From: Streptomyces hundungensis
GTDB taxonomy: Bacteria; Actinomycetota; Actinomycetes; Streptomycetales; Streptomycetaceae
Assembly (NCBI RefSeq): GCF_003627815.1
Contig: NZ_CP032698.1
Coordinates: 4,898,001 to 4,962,000 of the forward strand
Length of the DNA: 64,000 bases
Reading direction: 5' to 3'
The translations under genes and the position numbers were made by a program. Positions 7,361 to 12,301 of the stretch are shown here, one piece after another. Below the pieces are notes generated by a model. It did no database searches. It was not told where the DNA came from and saw only the letters and a list, made by a program, of their open reading frames with translations. Within the stretch, counting starts at the first letter, position 1; every line of letters begins with the position of its first letter.

Positions 7361-7900
7361 GTGAAGACGAAGCCCGGCGCCCTCGCGCTCCTCGTGTCCC
7401 TGACCCTCTCGACCCTCACTGGATGCAGCATGAGCGACTCCAAGGACTCCCACGAGATCCCCTCTGCGGGCATCAGTACCTCGAGCGACGCGGCCGACTC
7501 GATGGTCAGAGTGTCCAGTGCTCTCTACGACTTGATCGGAGTCAAAGGAAAGGCATCCGAGACTCAGCCGGGGGTTACGGAGTGCAGTGGCAAGGACCGC
7601 GACAAGTACTTCACGATCTTCCACCCTTGGAACATCACGCCGACCAAGACCACGGCGGCCGAGCTCGACGCGGTGATGGAACGACTCAAGAAGGAACTAC
7701 CCAAGCACGGCTGGGAGATCGTCGAGTACGGGCGTGACACGAGCAAGAGCAAGAACCTCAGTCTCACGGCCGACAACGACGAGCAGAAGGTCAGCGTCAA
7801 ACTGGCCTCCTACGCGAAGGACACCCCACCCTCCCTGGGCCTGATGGTCGTGTCCGGTTGTTACCAGATCCCTGAGGGGAAGAAGATCGAGCGGTTCTGA
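7361..7900 (+). CDS. Putative lipoprotein of unknown function
   Basis: The 179-residue protein starts at a GTG and has a lipoprotein signal peptide: charged MKTK, a hydrophobic stretch and the lipobox LTGC with Cys at about 22. The mature part is hydrophilic with no recognised domain. A motif around ECSGKDRDKYF and a second Cys in VSGCYQIPEG near the C-terminus could form a disulfide. It lies about 100 bp after the DUF1023 hydrolase gene on the same strand, so it may be a membrane-anchored partner of that product. Similar lipoproteins accompany ESX-like operons in Streptomyces. A specific role cannot be given. Confidence 0.8.
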   Translation: MKTKPGALALLVSLTLSTLTGCSMSDSKDSHEIPSAGISTSSDAADSMVRVSSALYDLIGVKGKASETQPGVTECSGKDRDKYFTIFHPWNITPTKTTAAELDAVMERLKKELPKHGWEIVEYGRDTSKSKNLSLTADNDEQKVSVKLASYAKDTPPSLGLMVVSGCYQIPEGKKIERF

Positions 7901-7988
7901 GCCGGTACGGCCTGGCCCGGGCGGGTCAGCGCGCGGTGGGGTGGTCCGGCGTGAGGCGGCGGTGACATTTGTTCTCCGTCCCGACACC

Positions 7989-8411
7989 ATGAGCCGCATG
8001 GCACTGACCCGTGAGGACGCAGAGAAGATCCTGGCCGACAACTTCGCACCCTGGGTGCTCGACCTCGGGCTGACCGTCGAGGAGACGGGGGCGCGGCACG
8101 CCGTGCTGCGGCTGCCCTGGAGCGACGCGCTCGCGCGGGACGGCGGGGGGATCAGCGGGCAGGCGCTGATGGCCGCCGCCGACACCGCCACCGTCATCGC
8201 GGTGGCCTGTGCGCGCGGGGCGTACGGGCCCATGACGACGGTCCAGCAGTCCACCACCTTCCAGCGTCCGGTGACCGGAGCCGATGTGCTCCTGGATGCG
8301 CGCGTCACCAAGCTGGGGCGCCGGATGGCCTTCGCCGACATCACCATGACCGCGGACGGCGCCGACGAGCCGGCCGCCCACGCCTCCACGGTGTACGCCC
8401 TGCTCGGCTGA
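7989..8411 (+). CDS. PaaI-family hotdog-fold thioesterase
   Basis: The 140-residue product fits the size of a single hotdog domain. The catalytic segment GGGISGQALMAAADTATVIAV matches the PaaI/YdiI pattern, in which a Gly-rich turn and an acidic residue in the following helix act on acyl-CoA thioesters. The C-terminal strands hold RVTKLGRRMAFADITM, the usual substrate-channel segment. Two nearby ATGs are possible, at 7989 and 7998, and neither has a strong Shine-Dalgarno. It stands alone between the lipoprotein and the secreted peptide gene. It could release CoA esters for the nearby oxidative enzymes, but no shared operator is visible. Confidence 0.85.
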   Translation: MSRMALTREDAEKILADNFAPWVLDLGLTVEETGARHAVLRLPWSDALARDGGGISGQALMAAADTATVIAVACARGAYGPMTTVQQSTTFQRPVTGADVLLDARVTKLGRRMAFADITMTADGADEPAAHASTVYALLG

Positions 8412-8718
8412 GCCGACCCGGCCCCGCCCGCGCGGCCGACCGTCGGGCGCGCCGCCGCCGCCCGCGCGGCAAGCCGCAAGCACCCCGGGCCCGTGGCGGG
8501 ACGGGCACAACTCGGCCGCTCCAACGCATAGTTGCCCTTGACCAACGCATTGCCAGTGCTATATCAGCCGACGACCAAGCGGGGTTGGAAAACGCTGGCC
8601 CGCATCGGTGGCCAACTGATCGTTTGGCGTGTTACGTTCAGTCGTGCCTGGCACCGAAAGGCCAGGCATCGGCCGCCGTGCTCCTCCTTGACCAAGGGGA
8701 CGCGACAGCCGGGTAATC
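8412..8718 (+). other. Gene-free promoter region upstream of leader copy A
   Basis: No gene is seen. The stretch holds two copies of CCAACGCAT around 8521 and 8543, a hairpin with stem GCCTGGC/GCCAGGC at 8646-8667, and the small palindrome CCTTGACCAAGG at 8686-8697. The promoter of the secreted-peptide gene probably lies here, but no convincing -35/-10 pair could be fixed. Confidence 0.4.
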
Positions 8719-8807
8719 GGGGGAATGAAGTCCGGGGGGACCTTTCGGTTTCCACGCCTGTTCGGGTTGCCCTTGTGGGCTTTTTCCCCCTTGCGACGAC
8801 GCAAGGG
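8719..8807 (+). promoter_or_regulatory. Structured leader, copy A, with its Shine-Dalgarno inside a hairpin
   Basis: This 89-nt segment aligns without gaps to 9823-9911. GGGGGAA at its 5' end can pair with TTCCCCC at 8784-8790, enclosing the conserved core that begins CCTTTCGGTTTCC at 8741 and runs to 8763. It is followed by CCTTGCG-ACGA-CGCAAGG at 8789-8806, whose 3' arm holds the AAGGG ribosome site for the ATG at 8817. That layout is typical of a translational switch or a thermosensor-like leader. No known riboswitch class was recognised. Confidence 0.65.
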
Positions 8808-8816
8808 ATGAATCGA

Positions 8817-9251
8817 ATGAACCGCAACTCTCTTCGGATGGCCGCAGTTTCCGCCATCGCCGCCGTCACCCTCGGCGGGGCCGCCGGCCTCGCTCAGGCA
8901 TCCGAGGCCCGGGTGGCCGCGCCGCAGGCCGTCTCCGTCACTCAGCAGGCTCAGCAGGCCGAGGCCCAGCAGGCCGCGCACGCCCTGCTGGCGAGCCCGC
9001 TGGCGGCCCAGCTCACCCCGGCCGAGCAGGCCGAGATGAAGCAGATCGCCAGCGGCGAGTTCACGGCGGCCAGCAAGTGGTCCGCCATCCGCGCCGCCTT
9101 CAGCAAGGTGGGCGGTTTCGCCAAGGCCATCGCCGGCAAGTACAGCGACTTCAAGAAGTGGTACGACGGCCTGTCCTGGTGGGTGAAGGCCCCGCTCGCG
9201 GCCGTCAGCCCCGGCCTGACGATTCTCGACATCTACAACGCCCTGCACTGA
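8817..9251 (+). CDS. Secreted small protein with cationic, Trp-rich C-terminus (bacteriocin-like)
   Basis: The 144-residue pre-protein has a Sec signal peptide with probable cleavage AQA|S after residue 28. An Ala/Gln-rich pro-region (about 29-85) follows. The C-terminus (about 86-144) is cationic with four Trp, including KKWYDGLSWWVKAP, and is predicted to form amphipathic helices. That last part resembles leaderless class II bacteriocins such as aureocin A53 in size, charge and Trp content, without recognised homology. The ATG at 8817 was chosen because AAGGG lies nine bases upstream; the ATG at 8808 is too close to it. A strong terminator follows immediately. The antimicrobial role is inference; a structural or signalling secreted protein is equally possible. 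Confidence 0.75.
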   Translation: MNRNSLRMAAVSAIAAVTLGGAAGLAQASEARVAAPQAVSVTQQAQQAEAQQAAHALLASPLAAQLTPAEQAEMKQIASGEFTAASKWSAIRAAFSKVGGFAKAIAGKYSDFKKWYDGLSWWVKAPLAAVSPGLTILDIYNALH

Positions 9252-9257
9252 TGACAG

Positions 9258-9288
9258 CGGGGGGATCGGCTCGTTGACGATCCCCCCG
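9258..9288 (+). terminator. Strong hairpin after the secreted-peptide gene
   Basis: CGGGGGGATCG at 9258-9268 pairs perfectly with 9278-9288 around a 9-nt loop, seven bases after the stop codon. It should terminate or attenuate most transcripts before the downstream membrane-protein gene. Confidence 0.75.
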
Positions 9289-9405
9289 ACCAGTCGTCCC
9301 GGGGTTGGCTCGACAGCTCCCCGGAGTGTTCAGCGCGCGGTGGCGGCCGGGTCCGTCCGGACGTACCCGGCCGCCACCGCCCCACGCCGAGACGGAGCGT
9401 TTTGG

Positions 9406-9687
9406 ATGAACGACACCAAGTCCCCCCGCGCCACCGCCCCAGGCGCATGGACCCTGCCGCTGCTGGCACTCGCACCGCTGGCGGTCATCGGAATCCTCGG
9501 TGACCGGGCGAGCTCCCTGTGGAGTTCCCTTTCCTGGGTGCTGTGGGCCCTGTCCGTCGTTCTGGTGGCGGCCGAGTGGGCATGGGTGTTCCGCCAGGCC
9601 GCGCGAAGGCCCGCGCACTGGGGTATGTGCATTCTCGTCCACGCCATACTGGCCTGGCAGTTGATCGCCCTCTTGATGAAACTGTGA
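9406..9687 (+). CDS. Small three-helix membrane protein
   Basis: The 93-residue protein begins MNDTKSPRATAPG and has three hydrophobic segments, at about 15-33, 40-62 and 71-92. Short connectors include ERxxRRPAHW-type positive residues (FRQAARRPAHWG). Shine-Dalgarno GGAG precedes the ATG at 9406. No family is recognised. It lies after the secreted-peptide terminator and before the second copy of the structured leader. Small multi-helix membrane proteins often give immunity to a neighbouring peptide toxin, and that is the working hypothesis here. An unrelated envelope role is possible. Confidence 0.75.
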   Translation: MNDTKSPRATAPGAWTLPLLALAPLAVIGILGDRASSLWSSLSWVLWALSVVLVAAEWAWVFRQAARRPAHWGMCILVHAILAWQLIALLMKL

Positions 9688-9822
9688 AGGCTGCCCCGAA
9701 CCTGATAGGGCTCGAATGGGCGGGGATGGCGCAAAGGCCGTAACTGTCATTGTGCCGTGCGCAAATGCTTTATCGGACCCGGAACAGGTAAGGGCGAATT
9801 CGGCGACGGCGACAACGTAGTC

Positions 9823-9911
9823 GGGGGAAGAAGCTCGCGAACGGCCTTTCGGTTTCCACGCCTGTTCAGACTGCCCGTGAAGACTTCCTCCCCCTTGCGA
9901 TAACGCAAGTG
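9823..9911 (+). promoter_or_regulatory. Structured leader, copy B, upstream of the subtilase
   Basis: This copy matches copy A without gaps. The core starting CCTTTCGGTTTCC at 9845 is identical for 23 nt. GGGGGAAGAAG at 9823-9833 can pair with CTTCCTCCCCC at 9884-9894, with compensating changes relative to copy A. The hairpin CTTGCG-ATAA-CGCAAG at 9894-9909 is kept with a changed loop. GAACAGG at 9782-9788 is also complementary to CCTGTTC inside the core. Here the hairpin ends about 130 nt before the subtilase ATG, so its output may differ from copy A. Confidence 0.6.
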
Positions 9912-10041
9912 AACCCTACCCGAGCCCCCCGCCCGTATGCGGTGGCCGTCCGGGCTCGCCCCACGCTCCAGTGCCGCGTCCCCGCCGTACCTCGGCCCGT
10001 TCAAGCCGTTCCCCACCCCTGTTCAAGGAGATACCCCTGCC

Positions 10042-11250
10042 ATGTCATGGGTACGAAGCATCGCCGTGGGTCTGACGGCCCTCGGCGTGGTCACGGCGGG
10101 GCTGTCGTCCACGGCGGCGTCCGGGGCGTCCGCCGCTCCCGCCGGAGCGAGCCGCACGGCGACGGCCGGCGTCACCGACGCCATCCCCGGCAGCTACCTC
10201 GTCACCCTCAAGGATGCGGTTGTCCGTGCCGACTCCGCCGCGGGCCAGGCGGTGGCCCGGAAGTACGGTGCGACCGTGCGGCGCACCTACCACCAGGCCG
10301 TCAACGGCTACTCGATCCGGGCCTCCGCGCAACAGGCCGAGCGGCTCGCCGGGGACCCCGCGGTCGCGTCCGTCTCGGCCAACCGCGCCTTCCACGTCAC
10401 CGGCACCCAGCCCCGGCCGCCGTCCTGGGGCCTCGACCGGATCGACCAGCACAAGCTCCCGCTGGATCGGAGCTACACCTACCCGGCCGGCGCCGGGGCC
10501 GGCGTGACCGCGTACATCATCGACAGCGGGGTGCGCATCAGCCACCAGGACTTCGGCGGCCGGGCCTCGTACGGCTATGACGCCGTCGACGACGACCAGA
10601 TCGCCCAGGACGGATACGGTCACGGCACCCACGTCGCCGCCATCGCCGCGGGCAACCGCTACGGCGTCGCCAAGAAGGCGAAGATCGTCGCGGTGCGGGT
10701 GCTCGACGACGCGGGCTCCGGCACCACCGAAGGGATCGTCGCGGGCATCGACTGGGTGACGCGGCACGCGGCCAAGCCCGCCGTCGCCAACCTGTCGCTC
10801 AGCGGCGGGGCGGACGCGGTGGTCGACCAGGCCGTCAGACGGTCCATCGCCTCCGGCGTGACGTACACCGTCGCGGCGGGCAACGACAACGAGGACGCCG
10901 CCAAACACTCCCCGGCCCGCGTCCGCGAAGCCATCACGGTGGGCTCCACCACCGAGCGCGACGCCCGCGAGGCCCTCTCCAACTACGGTGCGGCACTTGA
11001 CCTGTTCGCCCCGGGGGAGTCCATCGCCTCGGCCTGGAACGCGAGCGACACCGCCACCGTCACCGACTCCGGTACGTCCATGGCCGCCCCGCACGTGGCC
11101 GGAGCCGCCGCGCTCTACCTGGCGGCCCACCCGAAGGCGCGACCCGCCCAGGTCGCCGCCGCACTGACCGCCGCGGCCACGACCGGCGCCGTCACCAGGC
11201 CCGGCGCCGGCTCCCCCGACCGGCTGCTCGCCATCGGGGCGCGCCGCTGA
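10042..11250 (+). CDS. Secreted S8 subtilisin-like serine protease (proteinase K type)
   Basis: The 402-residue pre-pro-enzyme has a Sec signal peptide (about 1-33) and an I9 inhibitor-type propeptide with PGSYLVTLKD (about 50-120). The catalytic domain shows Asp in YIIDSGV (about 158), His in GHGTHVAAIAAG (about 196) and Ser in GTSMAAPHVAG (about 349), with oxyanion Asn in AAGNDNED. It should be autoprocessed and released as an extracellular endopeptidase. The ATG at 10042 follows AAGGAGA. Its leader is nearly identical to that of the secreted small protein gene 1.2 kb upstream, which suggests coordinated expression and possibly processing of that protein. Confidence 0.95.
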   Translation: MSWVRSIAVGLTALGVVTAGLSSTAASGASAAPAGASRTATAGVTDAIPGSYLVTLKDAVVRADSAAGQAVARKYGATVRRTYHQAVNGYSIRASAQQAERLAGDPAVASVSANRAFHVTGTQPRPPSWGLDRIDQHKLPLDRSYTYPAGAGAGVTAYIIDSGVRISHQDFGGRASYGYDAVDDDQIAQDGYGHGTHVAAIAAGNRYGVAKKAKIVAVRVLDDAGSGTTEGIVAGIDWVTRHAAKPAVANLSLSGGADAVVDQAVRRSIASGVTYTVAAGNDNEDAAKHSPARVREAITVGSTTERDAREALSNYGAALDLFAPGESIASAWNASDTATVTDSGTSMAAPHVAGAAALYLAAHPKARPAQVAAALTAAATTGAVTRPGAGSPDRLLAIGARR

Positions 11251-11277
11251 CCCCACCGCCGCCCGCACACCCCTTGC

Positions 11278-11292
11278 CTGACGGTGCGTCAG
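11278..11292. promoter_or_regulatory. CTGAC-N5-GTCAG operator, site 2
   Basis: CTGACGGTGCGTCAG lies upstream of the LLM-SDR operon and is identical to the copy at 13225. A second, slightly degenerate copy follows 41 bp later, giving a tandem operator around the promoter. Confidence 0.7.
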
Positions 11293-11318
11293 CTATGACG
11301 ATGGGGCCACCATGTCAG

Positions 11319-11333
11319 GTGACGGGTCGTCAG
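11319..11333. promoter_or_regulatory. CTGAC-N5-GTCAG operator, site 3 (one mismatch)
   Basis: GTGACGGGTCGTCAG keeps the TGACG...CGTCA core. It ends 23 bp before the GTG at 11357, which argues that the upstream ATG at 11312 is not the real start. Confidence 0.6.
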
Positions 11334-11356
11334 ATCAGGGTGGAGGCGGGCGTACG

Positions 11357-12301
11357 GTGCCGATATTGCCGAACGGTCGACTGGTGTACGGGATGCAGCT
11401 CCCGATCCAGTCGCAGAGCACCATCTACGCGGAGCCGTGGGAGGCGGACGCGGGGCCGGGGGATCTGGCCGAGATCGCCCGCGCCGCCGAACGCTCCGGC
11501 TTCGCCTACCTCGCGAGCTGCGACCACGTGGCCATCCCGCGGCGGCTCGCGGGCGCGATGAGCACCATCTGGTACGACCCGGTCGCCACCCTCTCCTTCC
11601 TGGCCGGGGTCACCGACCGGATCCTGCTCATGAGCCATGTCGCGGTGGCCGGGCTCCGGCACCCGCTGATCACCGCCAAGCAGTACGCGACCCTGGACCA
11701 CCTCAGCGGTGGCCGGCTGATCCTGGGCGTGGGGGCGGGACACGTACGGGAGGAGTTCGAGGCGGTCGGCGCGGACTTCGACGGACGCGGGCCCGCCCTC
11801 GACGAGACCGTAGACGCGCTCCGTGCCGCGCTCGGCCCGGAGGAGTACCCCTCCTTCCGGGGCGAGCGCTTCGCCTTCGAGGGGCTCGGCCAGCGGCCCC
11901 GGCCCGCCCAGCGGCACGTCCCGATCTGGGTGGGCGGCTCGTCCCCCGCGGCCGTGCGGCGCGCCGCCCTGCGCGGTGACGGCTGGCTCCCCCAGGGCGA
12001 TCCGAGAAAGGCGCTGCCGGCCCAGATCGGCCGGCTGAAGTCCCTGCGCGAACAGGCCGGGATCGTCGACCCCATCACGGTCGGCGCGATCACCGAGGCG
12101 CTGTACGTGGGTGATCCCGGCTGGGAGACAGGGCGGCGCACCCTCACCGGCAAACCCGAGCTCCTGGCCGAGTCGCTGCGGGCGTACCGGGCGATGGGCG
12201 TGGACCAGATCCAGGTGCGCTTCCGGTCCCGGGACCTCGGTGAACTCCTGGACCAGATCGCCGCGTTCGGAGCCGACGTCGCCCCGCACCTCCATGACTG
12301 A
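11357..12301 (+). CDS. LLM-family (luciferase-like, F420/FMN) oxidoreductase
   Basis: The 314-residue protein is a TIM-barrel luciferase-like monooxygenase or F420-dependent dehydrogenase. Family features are the N-terminal strand YGMQLP, LTS-type substrate region SHVAVAGLRHP, the AKQYATLDHLSGGRLILGVGAG block and PIWVGGSSPAAVRRAA in the C-terminal half. The last two bind cofactor phosphate in this fold. The GTG at 11357 was preferred because GGAGG lies ten bases upstream and the operator overlaps the earlier ATG. An SDR gene follows 40 bp later, so the two form an operon under the CTGAC-N5-GTCAG palindromes. Cofactor choice and substrate are not decided by sequence. Confidence 0.85.
   Translation: MPILPNGRLVYGMQLPIQSQSTIYAEPWEADAGPGDLAEIARAAERSGFAYLASCDHVAIPRRLAGAMSTIWYDPVATLSFLAGVTDRILLMSHVAVAGLRHPLITAKQYATLDHLSGGRLILGVGAGHVREEFEAVGADFDGRGPALDETVDALRAALGPEEYPSFRGERFAFEGLGQRPRPAQRHVPIWVGGSSPAAVRRAALRGDGWLPQGDPRKALPAQIGRLKSLREQAGIVDPITVGAITEALYVGDPGWETGRRTLTGKPELLAESLRAYRAMGVDQIQVRFRSRDLGELLDQIAAFGADVAPHLHD

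Follow-up and report, generated by a model that had tools for sequence, protein, structure and literature searches.

The window, by which we mean the whole 64,000-nt stretch of Streptomyces hundungensis DNA analysed here, carries genes for a small secreted peptide, a small membrane protein and a secreted subtilase, together with two copies (A and B) of a structured leader (Table 1). The peptide had 63 homologues at E ≤ 0.001, and the organism names among the matches listed were Streptomyces. Neither Pfam (with the protein read from 6 nt upstream of the 8817 start in the same frame) nor NCBIfam gave a match for it. Its AF2 model is helical, with a mean pLDDT of 74.8 and a low-confidence N-terminus, and no PDB fold matched this model at E ≤ 0.001. 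Copy A lies directly before the peptide start in all 14 class-1 peptide loci read. A small hydrophobic ORF follows the peptide gene at a distance of 17–130 nt in 13 of the 13 relative loci tested, with three hydrophobic segments in 11 of these ORFs, two in one and one in another; the 93-aa membrane protein may have an immunity role. No bacteriocin family match was found for the peptide, and it is from the order of peptide, small membrane protein, ABC genes and subtilase that we infer a possible bacteriocin-like system at this locus.

Table 1. Features of the peptide locus, in coordinates of the window
Feature	Position	Strand	Basis
Promoter-like GTGTTACGTTC (putative)	8629..8639	+	By eye in upstream sequences
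Upstream hairpin, loop UUGACCA; in peptide leaders, in hardly any B leader	8675..8706	+	Comparison of peptide and B leaders
Copy A long stem P1/P2/P3 with apical core	8719..8790	+	Folds, covariation
P1 arms of copy A	8719-8733 and 8777-8790	+	Folds
Copy A core, conserved; GUKUCCAMGCC is the minimal core shared across classes	8741..8763	+	Sequence comparison
Competing Shine-Dalgarno (SD) hairpin CCCTTGCG-ACGA-CGCAAGGGA of copy A	8788..8808	+	Sequence, two-state energies
SD AAGGGA of peptide gene	8803-8808	+	Sequence
Small secreted peptide gene, 144 aa	8817..9251	+	N-terminus signal-like by eye; middle rich in Ala; C-terminal half helical and Trp-rich
Small membrane protein of 93 aa (putative immunity protein)	9406..9687	+	Position; no Pfam match
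Copy B of leader; core 9845-9867, terminal hairpin 9895-9908	9823..9911	+	Alignment, covariance-model matches
Deletion junction; ABC ATPase and permease genes here in relatives	9961..10010	+	blastn
Secreted subtilase (Peptidase_S8 with Inhibitor_I9 propeptide)	10042..11250	+	Pfam

The sequence-only reading had described A and B as two gap-free copies with an identical core, with arms that differ and keep their pairing, and with a terminal hairpin that in A takes in the SD of the next gene. This description held. Copy A (8719-8807) and copy B align over 89 nt without gaps and are identical at 67 of these positions, the intergenic regions that contain them match in blastn at E 9e-18, and the 23-nt core, CCTTTCGGTTTCCACGCCTGTTC, is the same in both. 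The folds pair GGGGGAA with TTCCCCC in A and GGGGGAAGAAG with CTTCCTCCCCC in B, and both copies end in TTGCG-N4-CGCAA. The terminal hairpin of A has a 3′ arm that continues into AAGGGA, the SD of the gene that starts at 8817, and the CCC at 8788-8790 is common to P1 and the SD hairpin. When the 8.39-Mb genome was searched for the core with up to three mismatches, two forward and no reverse occurrences were obtained (control, 0), with neither a third copy nor a near-exact antisense partner found at this threshold. The covariance model R1, run on the same genome with 150 candidates scored, returned A and B alone at E ≤ 10. We rejected a repetitive-element reading because the core scan and R1 gave only two copies in the genome.

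Upstream of the repeat, GACC was present within 115 nt in 22 of 23 peptide leaders versus two of 11 B leaders, and the stem around it reached p < 0.05 in 11 of the 22 GACC-bearing peptide leaders (p = 0.093 for the window copy). The leader of the peptide gene is therefore probably longer than the 89 nt first described. In many peptide leaders, blocks resembling the promoter-like motif of Table 1 were seen by eye some 90 nt before the main stem, and a sigma-70 consensus scan of 8411-10060 gave no promoter. At 8600-8640 of the window and at the corresponding place in relatives, inspection by eye also showed conserved blocks that resemble GTGATC and TTACGTTC and look like a promoter or operator.

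The leader was then looked for in other genomes with several models. When the GTDB genome collection, from which records of the window's own genome may have been left out, was scanned for exact copies of the core, seven stretches were obtained from six Streptomyces genomes, and two of these stretches contain both copies. R1 matched in four of 150 Streptomyces genomes, the window's genome counted. The covariance model R2, run over 392 Streptomyces genomes, gave 16 matches at E < 1e-9 in 10 genomes; all 16 adjoin a peptide gene or lie within about 1 kb of one, which places every strong match at a peptide/ABC locus and shows a conserved position before related genes. Weak R2 matches (E 0.0016–0.0099) occurred in seven genomes. 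We accepted two of them (L047 and L048) as divergent members because each has the core, the stem and then a signal-like coding start, and discarded the others (L046, L049-L052) as, by eye, unrelated perfect hairpins. Four of the discarded matches (L049, L050, L051 and L052, at about 1430-1545) are near-identical G+C-rich hairpins in four Streptomyces genomes; in one of these hairpins the stem is CGGGCCACCC...GGGGTGGCCCG, and TTTCCACGGC lies close to its loop.

The search was also approached from the protein side. The peptide family, represented by an alignment of 37 proteins, was detected in 20 of the 392 Streptomyces genomes, and the upstream regions of all 20 were read. A leader of the same architecture was present in 16, of class 1 in 10 genomes (L016-L024, L031) and of class 2, with the same layout and other arms, in six (L025-L030, of which L030 is divergent). 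Two further genomes have a partial or odd leader (L032, L035), and in the remaining two no leader was found upstream of the peptide gene (L033, L034). A gapped pattern of the architecture matched 17 of the 392 genomes, 13 of which were judged real, and the reversed control matched one; the matches in the other four (G042, G283, G303, G321) were judged false from the matched letters only. Under strict filters, R3 searches of 150 genomes of the family (16 genera besides Streptomyces) and of 99 genomes of the order (four genera besides Streptomyces) gave no match outside Streptomyces, and both returned the same two Streptomyces genomes only, G000 (the genome of the window) and G443.

The sequence-only reading recognised no known RNA class, and the element was compared with Rfam 15. 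Nothing was found at the element at E ≤ 5 when 7500-11500 of the window was searched, and 15 relative loci gave no credible leader match. The sole match overlapping a leader in these loci was a microRNA model at the partial leader of L032, which we did not regard as credible: it lies on the opposite strand and scores 24.8 bits (gathering score 88; E 2.4). A description of the leader was not found in the literature searched, a search whose reach excluded most subscription papers; the letters of the core occur in papers that, judged by their titles, deal with other organisms or subjects. Two other Rfam models matched on the minus strand of relative loci: the Streptomyces sRNA scr4677 (RF02673, 55.6 bits, gathering 41) at 3171-3397 of L025, near a class-2 peptide locus, and the cspA thermoregulator model at 3050-3279 of L035 (73.6 bits, E 9.7e-17, just under the gathering score of 78). 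The latter would be unexpected for Streptomyces.

For covariation, 25 class-1 sequences were aligned by R2 over 29 pairs, which cover the outer and inner P1, P2, P3, a two-pair apical closure and the SD hairpin. Pairing is maintained in 93.6% of the paired cells, versus a shuffle mean of 91.8. Compensatory base changes, as expected of a structured cis-regulatory RNA, were found as two-sided changes in nine of the 29 pairs (shuffle mean 3.7, slid versions 2–5) in an alignment that leans toward the structure, being fitted to one partly derived from folds of the same sequences. None of 500 shuffles equalled the observed paired share, double changes or covariation score, while 65 of the 500 did so for further pair types, the one of the five measures whose value is not unusual. 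The pairing of the SD hairpin is kept through the variants TTGCG/CGCAA, TTGTG/CACAA and TTTGTG/CACAAA. Covariance-model searches turned up copies beyond A and B upstream of secreted-protein genes, which the sequence-only reading had named as support.

The apical sequence TTCCACGCC is invariant in all 25 class-1 sequences. Eleven of them carry the exact core used as the search query, which makes their core identity circular; of the remaining 14, eight lie at loci also detected through protein homology alone. GUKUCCAMGCC is the best-conserved part across two classes whose stems otherwise differ, and the helix that closes it is GGCCG...CGGCU in class 2 and GGCCG...CGGCC in L047, with the same core in L048 (by eye). 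Because of the common core and the similar closing helix, we regarded class 1, class 2, L047 and L048 as one family. An alternative hairpin inside the core, GGGGACC/GGUUUCC, which appears in some folds, was rejected; by eye it is missing in L047, L048 and class 2. Taken together, the data show that the element is real and conserved, and that it is probably a cis-regulatory RNA.

Copy B has a different context. It lies 131 nt upstream of the subtilase start, and the sequence-only reading had named the subtilase as the gene downstream of it. The subtilase as the natural partner of B was not supported by the comparison with relatives, as an ABC ATPase gene follows B in nine of 12 B loci and the window has suffered a deletion: 9817-9961 of the window corresponds to 739-883 of L002, and 10010-10100 to 2822-2910 of L002. 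The best-scoring match to the ATPase elsewhere in the genome is 42% identical. The subtilase is therefore a secondary neighbour of B, brought next to it by loss of the ABC genes. The remaining three B loci are the window, L007, the available sequence of which ends 711 nt after the core and aligns with the window across the deletion junction, and L109, which has a 19-codon frame after B and in which a Walker A motif was not found in 1.5 kb. B thus persists with no ABC ATPase following it in the window, in L109 and, by alignment across the junction, in L007.

An in-frame ATG directly after the B hairpin is present in four of the ATPase loci (L012, L017, L019, L020) and absent from five (L002, L003, L004, L005, L016). 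B has no start codon next to it in the window, L002, L004, L007 or L016, which have CTACCCG in place of the CTACATG of L005 and L017. These five copies of B are 88–98% identical, compared with 15–61% in the 100 nt upstream and 38–67% in the 110 nt downstream. Since B is conserved with no adjacent start codon, SD masking alone is insufficient as an explanation, and such copies must do something else, either in place of masking an adjacent SD or in addition to it. The proposal of a cis-acting RNA switch accordingly stands in part: the leader was found to be structured and to covary, with its SD inside a hairpin that competes with the main stem, and pure SD sequestration is disfavoured by these copies. 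When the 45 nt that follow B in L096 are set against the opening 45 nt of the peptide gene, 28 positions agree, as would fit an origin of B by duplication of A together with its first codons.

The competition in the leader was evaluated by forcing either the last three Cs to pair upstream (P1 state) or the last two to pair downstream (SD-extended state). For copy A the predicted energies are −42.8 and −42.1 kcal/mol, respectively. The predicted difference, SD-extended minus P1, has a median of −0.1 kcal/mol (range −4.2 to 5.7) in 23 peptide leaders (15 class-1 A, six class 2 and two divergent) and of 3.75 kcal/mol (range −7.4 to 13.4) in 12 B leaders. The two groups differ by a Mann-Whitney p of 0.007, which is optimistic because the sequences are related and not independent. 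The predicted states are within 4 kcal/mol of each other in 20 of the 23 peptide leaders, and P1 is favoured in 10 of the 12 B leaders. The lowest B value (−7.4) belongs to L012B, computed on a slightly longer stretch, where both stems can form together and the two states are therefore not exclusive. As the strand exchange often shifts just 2–3 base pairs, its coupling to the apical core is not evident.

The likeliest reading of these results, on predicted structures, is a translational switch, in which a cis-acting 5′ leader RNA would gate translation. The long imperfect hairpin P1-P3, with GUKUCCAMGCC in its apical loop, would be followed directly by a short hairpin that holds the SD of the next gene. 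When the last Cs of the long stem pair with the 5′ G-run of that stem, the SD hairpin would be short and the G-run of the SD free; when they pair instead with the G-run of the SD, the SD hairpin would be lengthened and the SD hidden. Stabilising or melting the long stem, for example through an RNA-binding protein or small molecule bound to the conserved apical loop, may shift the branch point and so determine how strongly the peptide gene is translated. B would descend from an early duplication of A, lie ahead of the ABC exporter and mostly favour the open state, which would leave export under looser gating than synthesis of the peptide. That the leader helps set the amount of peptide made is probable, and we hold the full reading, SD strand exchange with B as an exporter-side duplicate, with moderate confidence. 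A bolder version, which we consider doubtful, is that of a new sensory RNA class with two differently tuned copies: the peptide copy would sit at the switch point and the exporter copy would lean toward the open state, making export (and protection) available before a bacteriocin-like peptide is translated.

Other explanations account for parts of the same evidence. The conservation of B with no adjacent start codon, and its persistence after the loss of the ABC genes, would also fit a transcription attenuator or terminator, in which a long G+C-rich hairpin stops or pauses RNA polymerase, with A ahead of the peptide gene and B closing the unit formed by the peptide and membrane-protein genes. 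Streptomyces terminators often have no U-run. The stems are very stable, and B lies in the gap after the membrane-protein gene. However, no terminator-like site with a T-run is present at A or B; moreover, a mere terminator does not need an invariant apical loop and leaves the overlap with the SD in A unexplained. We consider it rather unlikely. The same apical loop could be the site of an RNA-binding regulator that recognises GUKUCCAMGCC and represses or stabilises the peptide and exporter mRNAs. It is the short apical sequence that is best conserved across two classes with otherwise different stems, and the element serves two genes of one locus; the regulator protein is, however, hypothetical, and its binding would be compatible with the translational switch rather than exclusive of it. 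As a separate explanation, we regard it as unlikely.

Identity between the copies cannot by itself separate DNA from RNA, and GTAATC immediately precedes the stem in 15 of 25 class-1 copies, so that an operator or a structure-forming inverted repeat acting on transcription initiation was also considered. Covarying arms around a fixed loop are, however, the opposite of a typical operator, and the SD is built into the last hairpin while the genome has only two copies; a DNA-level element is very improbable. Attenuation by a leader peptide can practically be set aside. In copy A, an ATG about 24 nt before the core (ATG AAG TCC ...) opens a frame that reads through it, as it does in L007A, L016A, L017A and L020A, and some ATG, GTG or TTG lies upstream of the core in 10 of 25 copies, but the other 15 have no such codon in any frame, single-nucleotide indels shift the frame, and no conserved short ORF was found.

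The element represents a probable RNA leader family that Rfam 15 lacks, so far found in Streptomyces only, with a clear and testable switch geometry. The family is tied to undescribed small secreted peptides with membrane-protein and ABC partners, and if the RNA responds to a signal, it would show when the peptides are made. The paired copies lend themselves to a natural comparison, one form of the RNA being poised and the other open.

Like translational riboswitches and other SD-sequestering leaders, the element is a 5′ structure with a conserved apical core and an SD hairpin that competes with the main stem. It differs from these in having no Rfam family and no known ligand or metabolic gene, and in occurring as two copies in one locus before a peptide gene and an exporter gene.

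Among motifs found only or mostly in Streptomyces, dauA, livJ, pntA and asfR are also structured and lie upstream of genes, with the SD built into the structure of dauA and of livJ (PMC11109978). The genes given there encode a STAS-domain protein, a LIVBP-like protein, a transhydrogenase and a regulator, unlike the peptide and ABC genes here, and dauA and asfR are three-stem junctions whereas the present leader is a single long hairpin, a distinction drawn by description only (PMC11109978).

With regard to the peptide, ABC-like machinery is described for aureocin A53, and leaderless bacteriocin loci are described in Actinomycetota (PMC11580447). Leaderless bacteriocins have no signal or leader, and the N-terminus here, MNRNSLRMAAVSAIAAVTLGGAAGLAQA, resembles a Sec signal by eye only. 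The present peptides, of about 140–157 aa with a signal-like N-terminus, are unlike the aureocin A53-like ones, as compared by description only, but the locus resembles theirs in combining a small helical peptide with membrane-associated proteins and ABC genes (PMC11580447).
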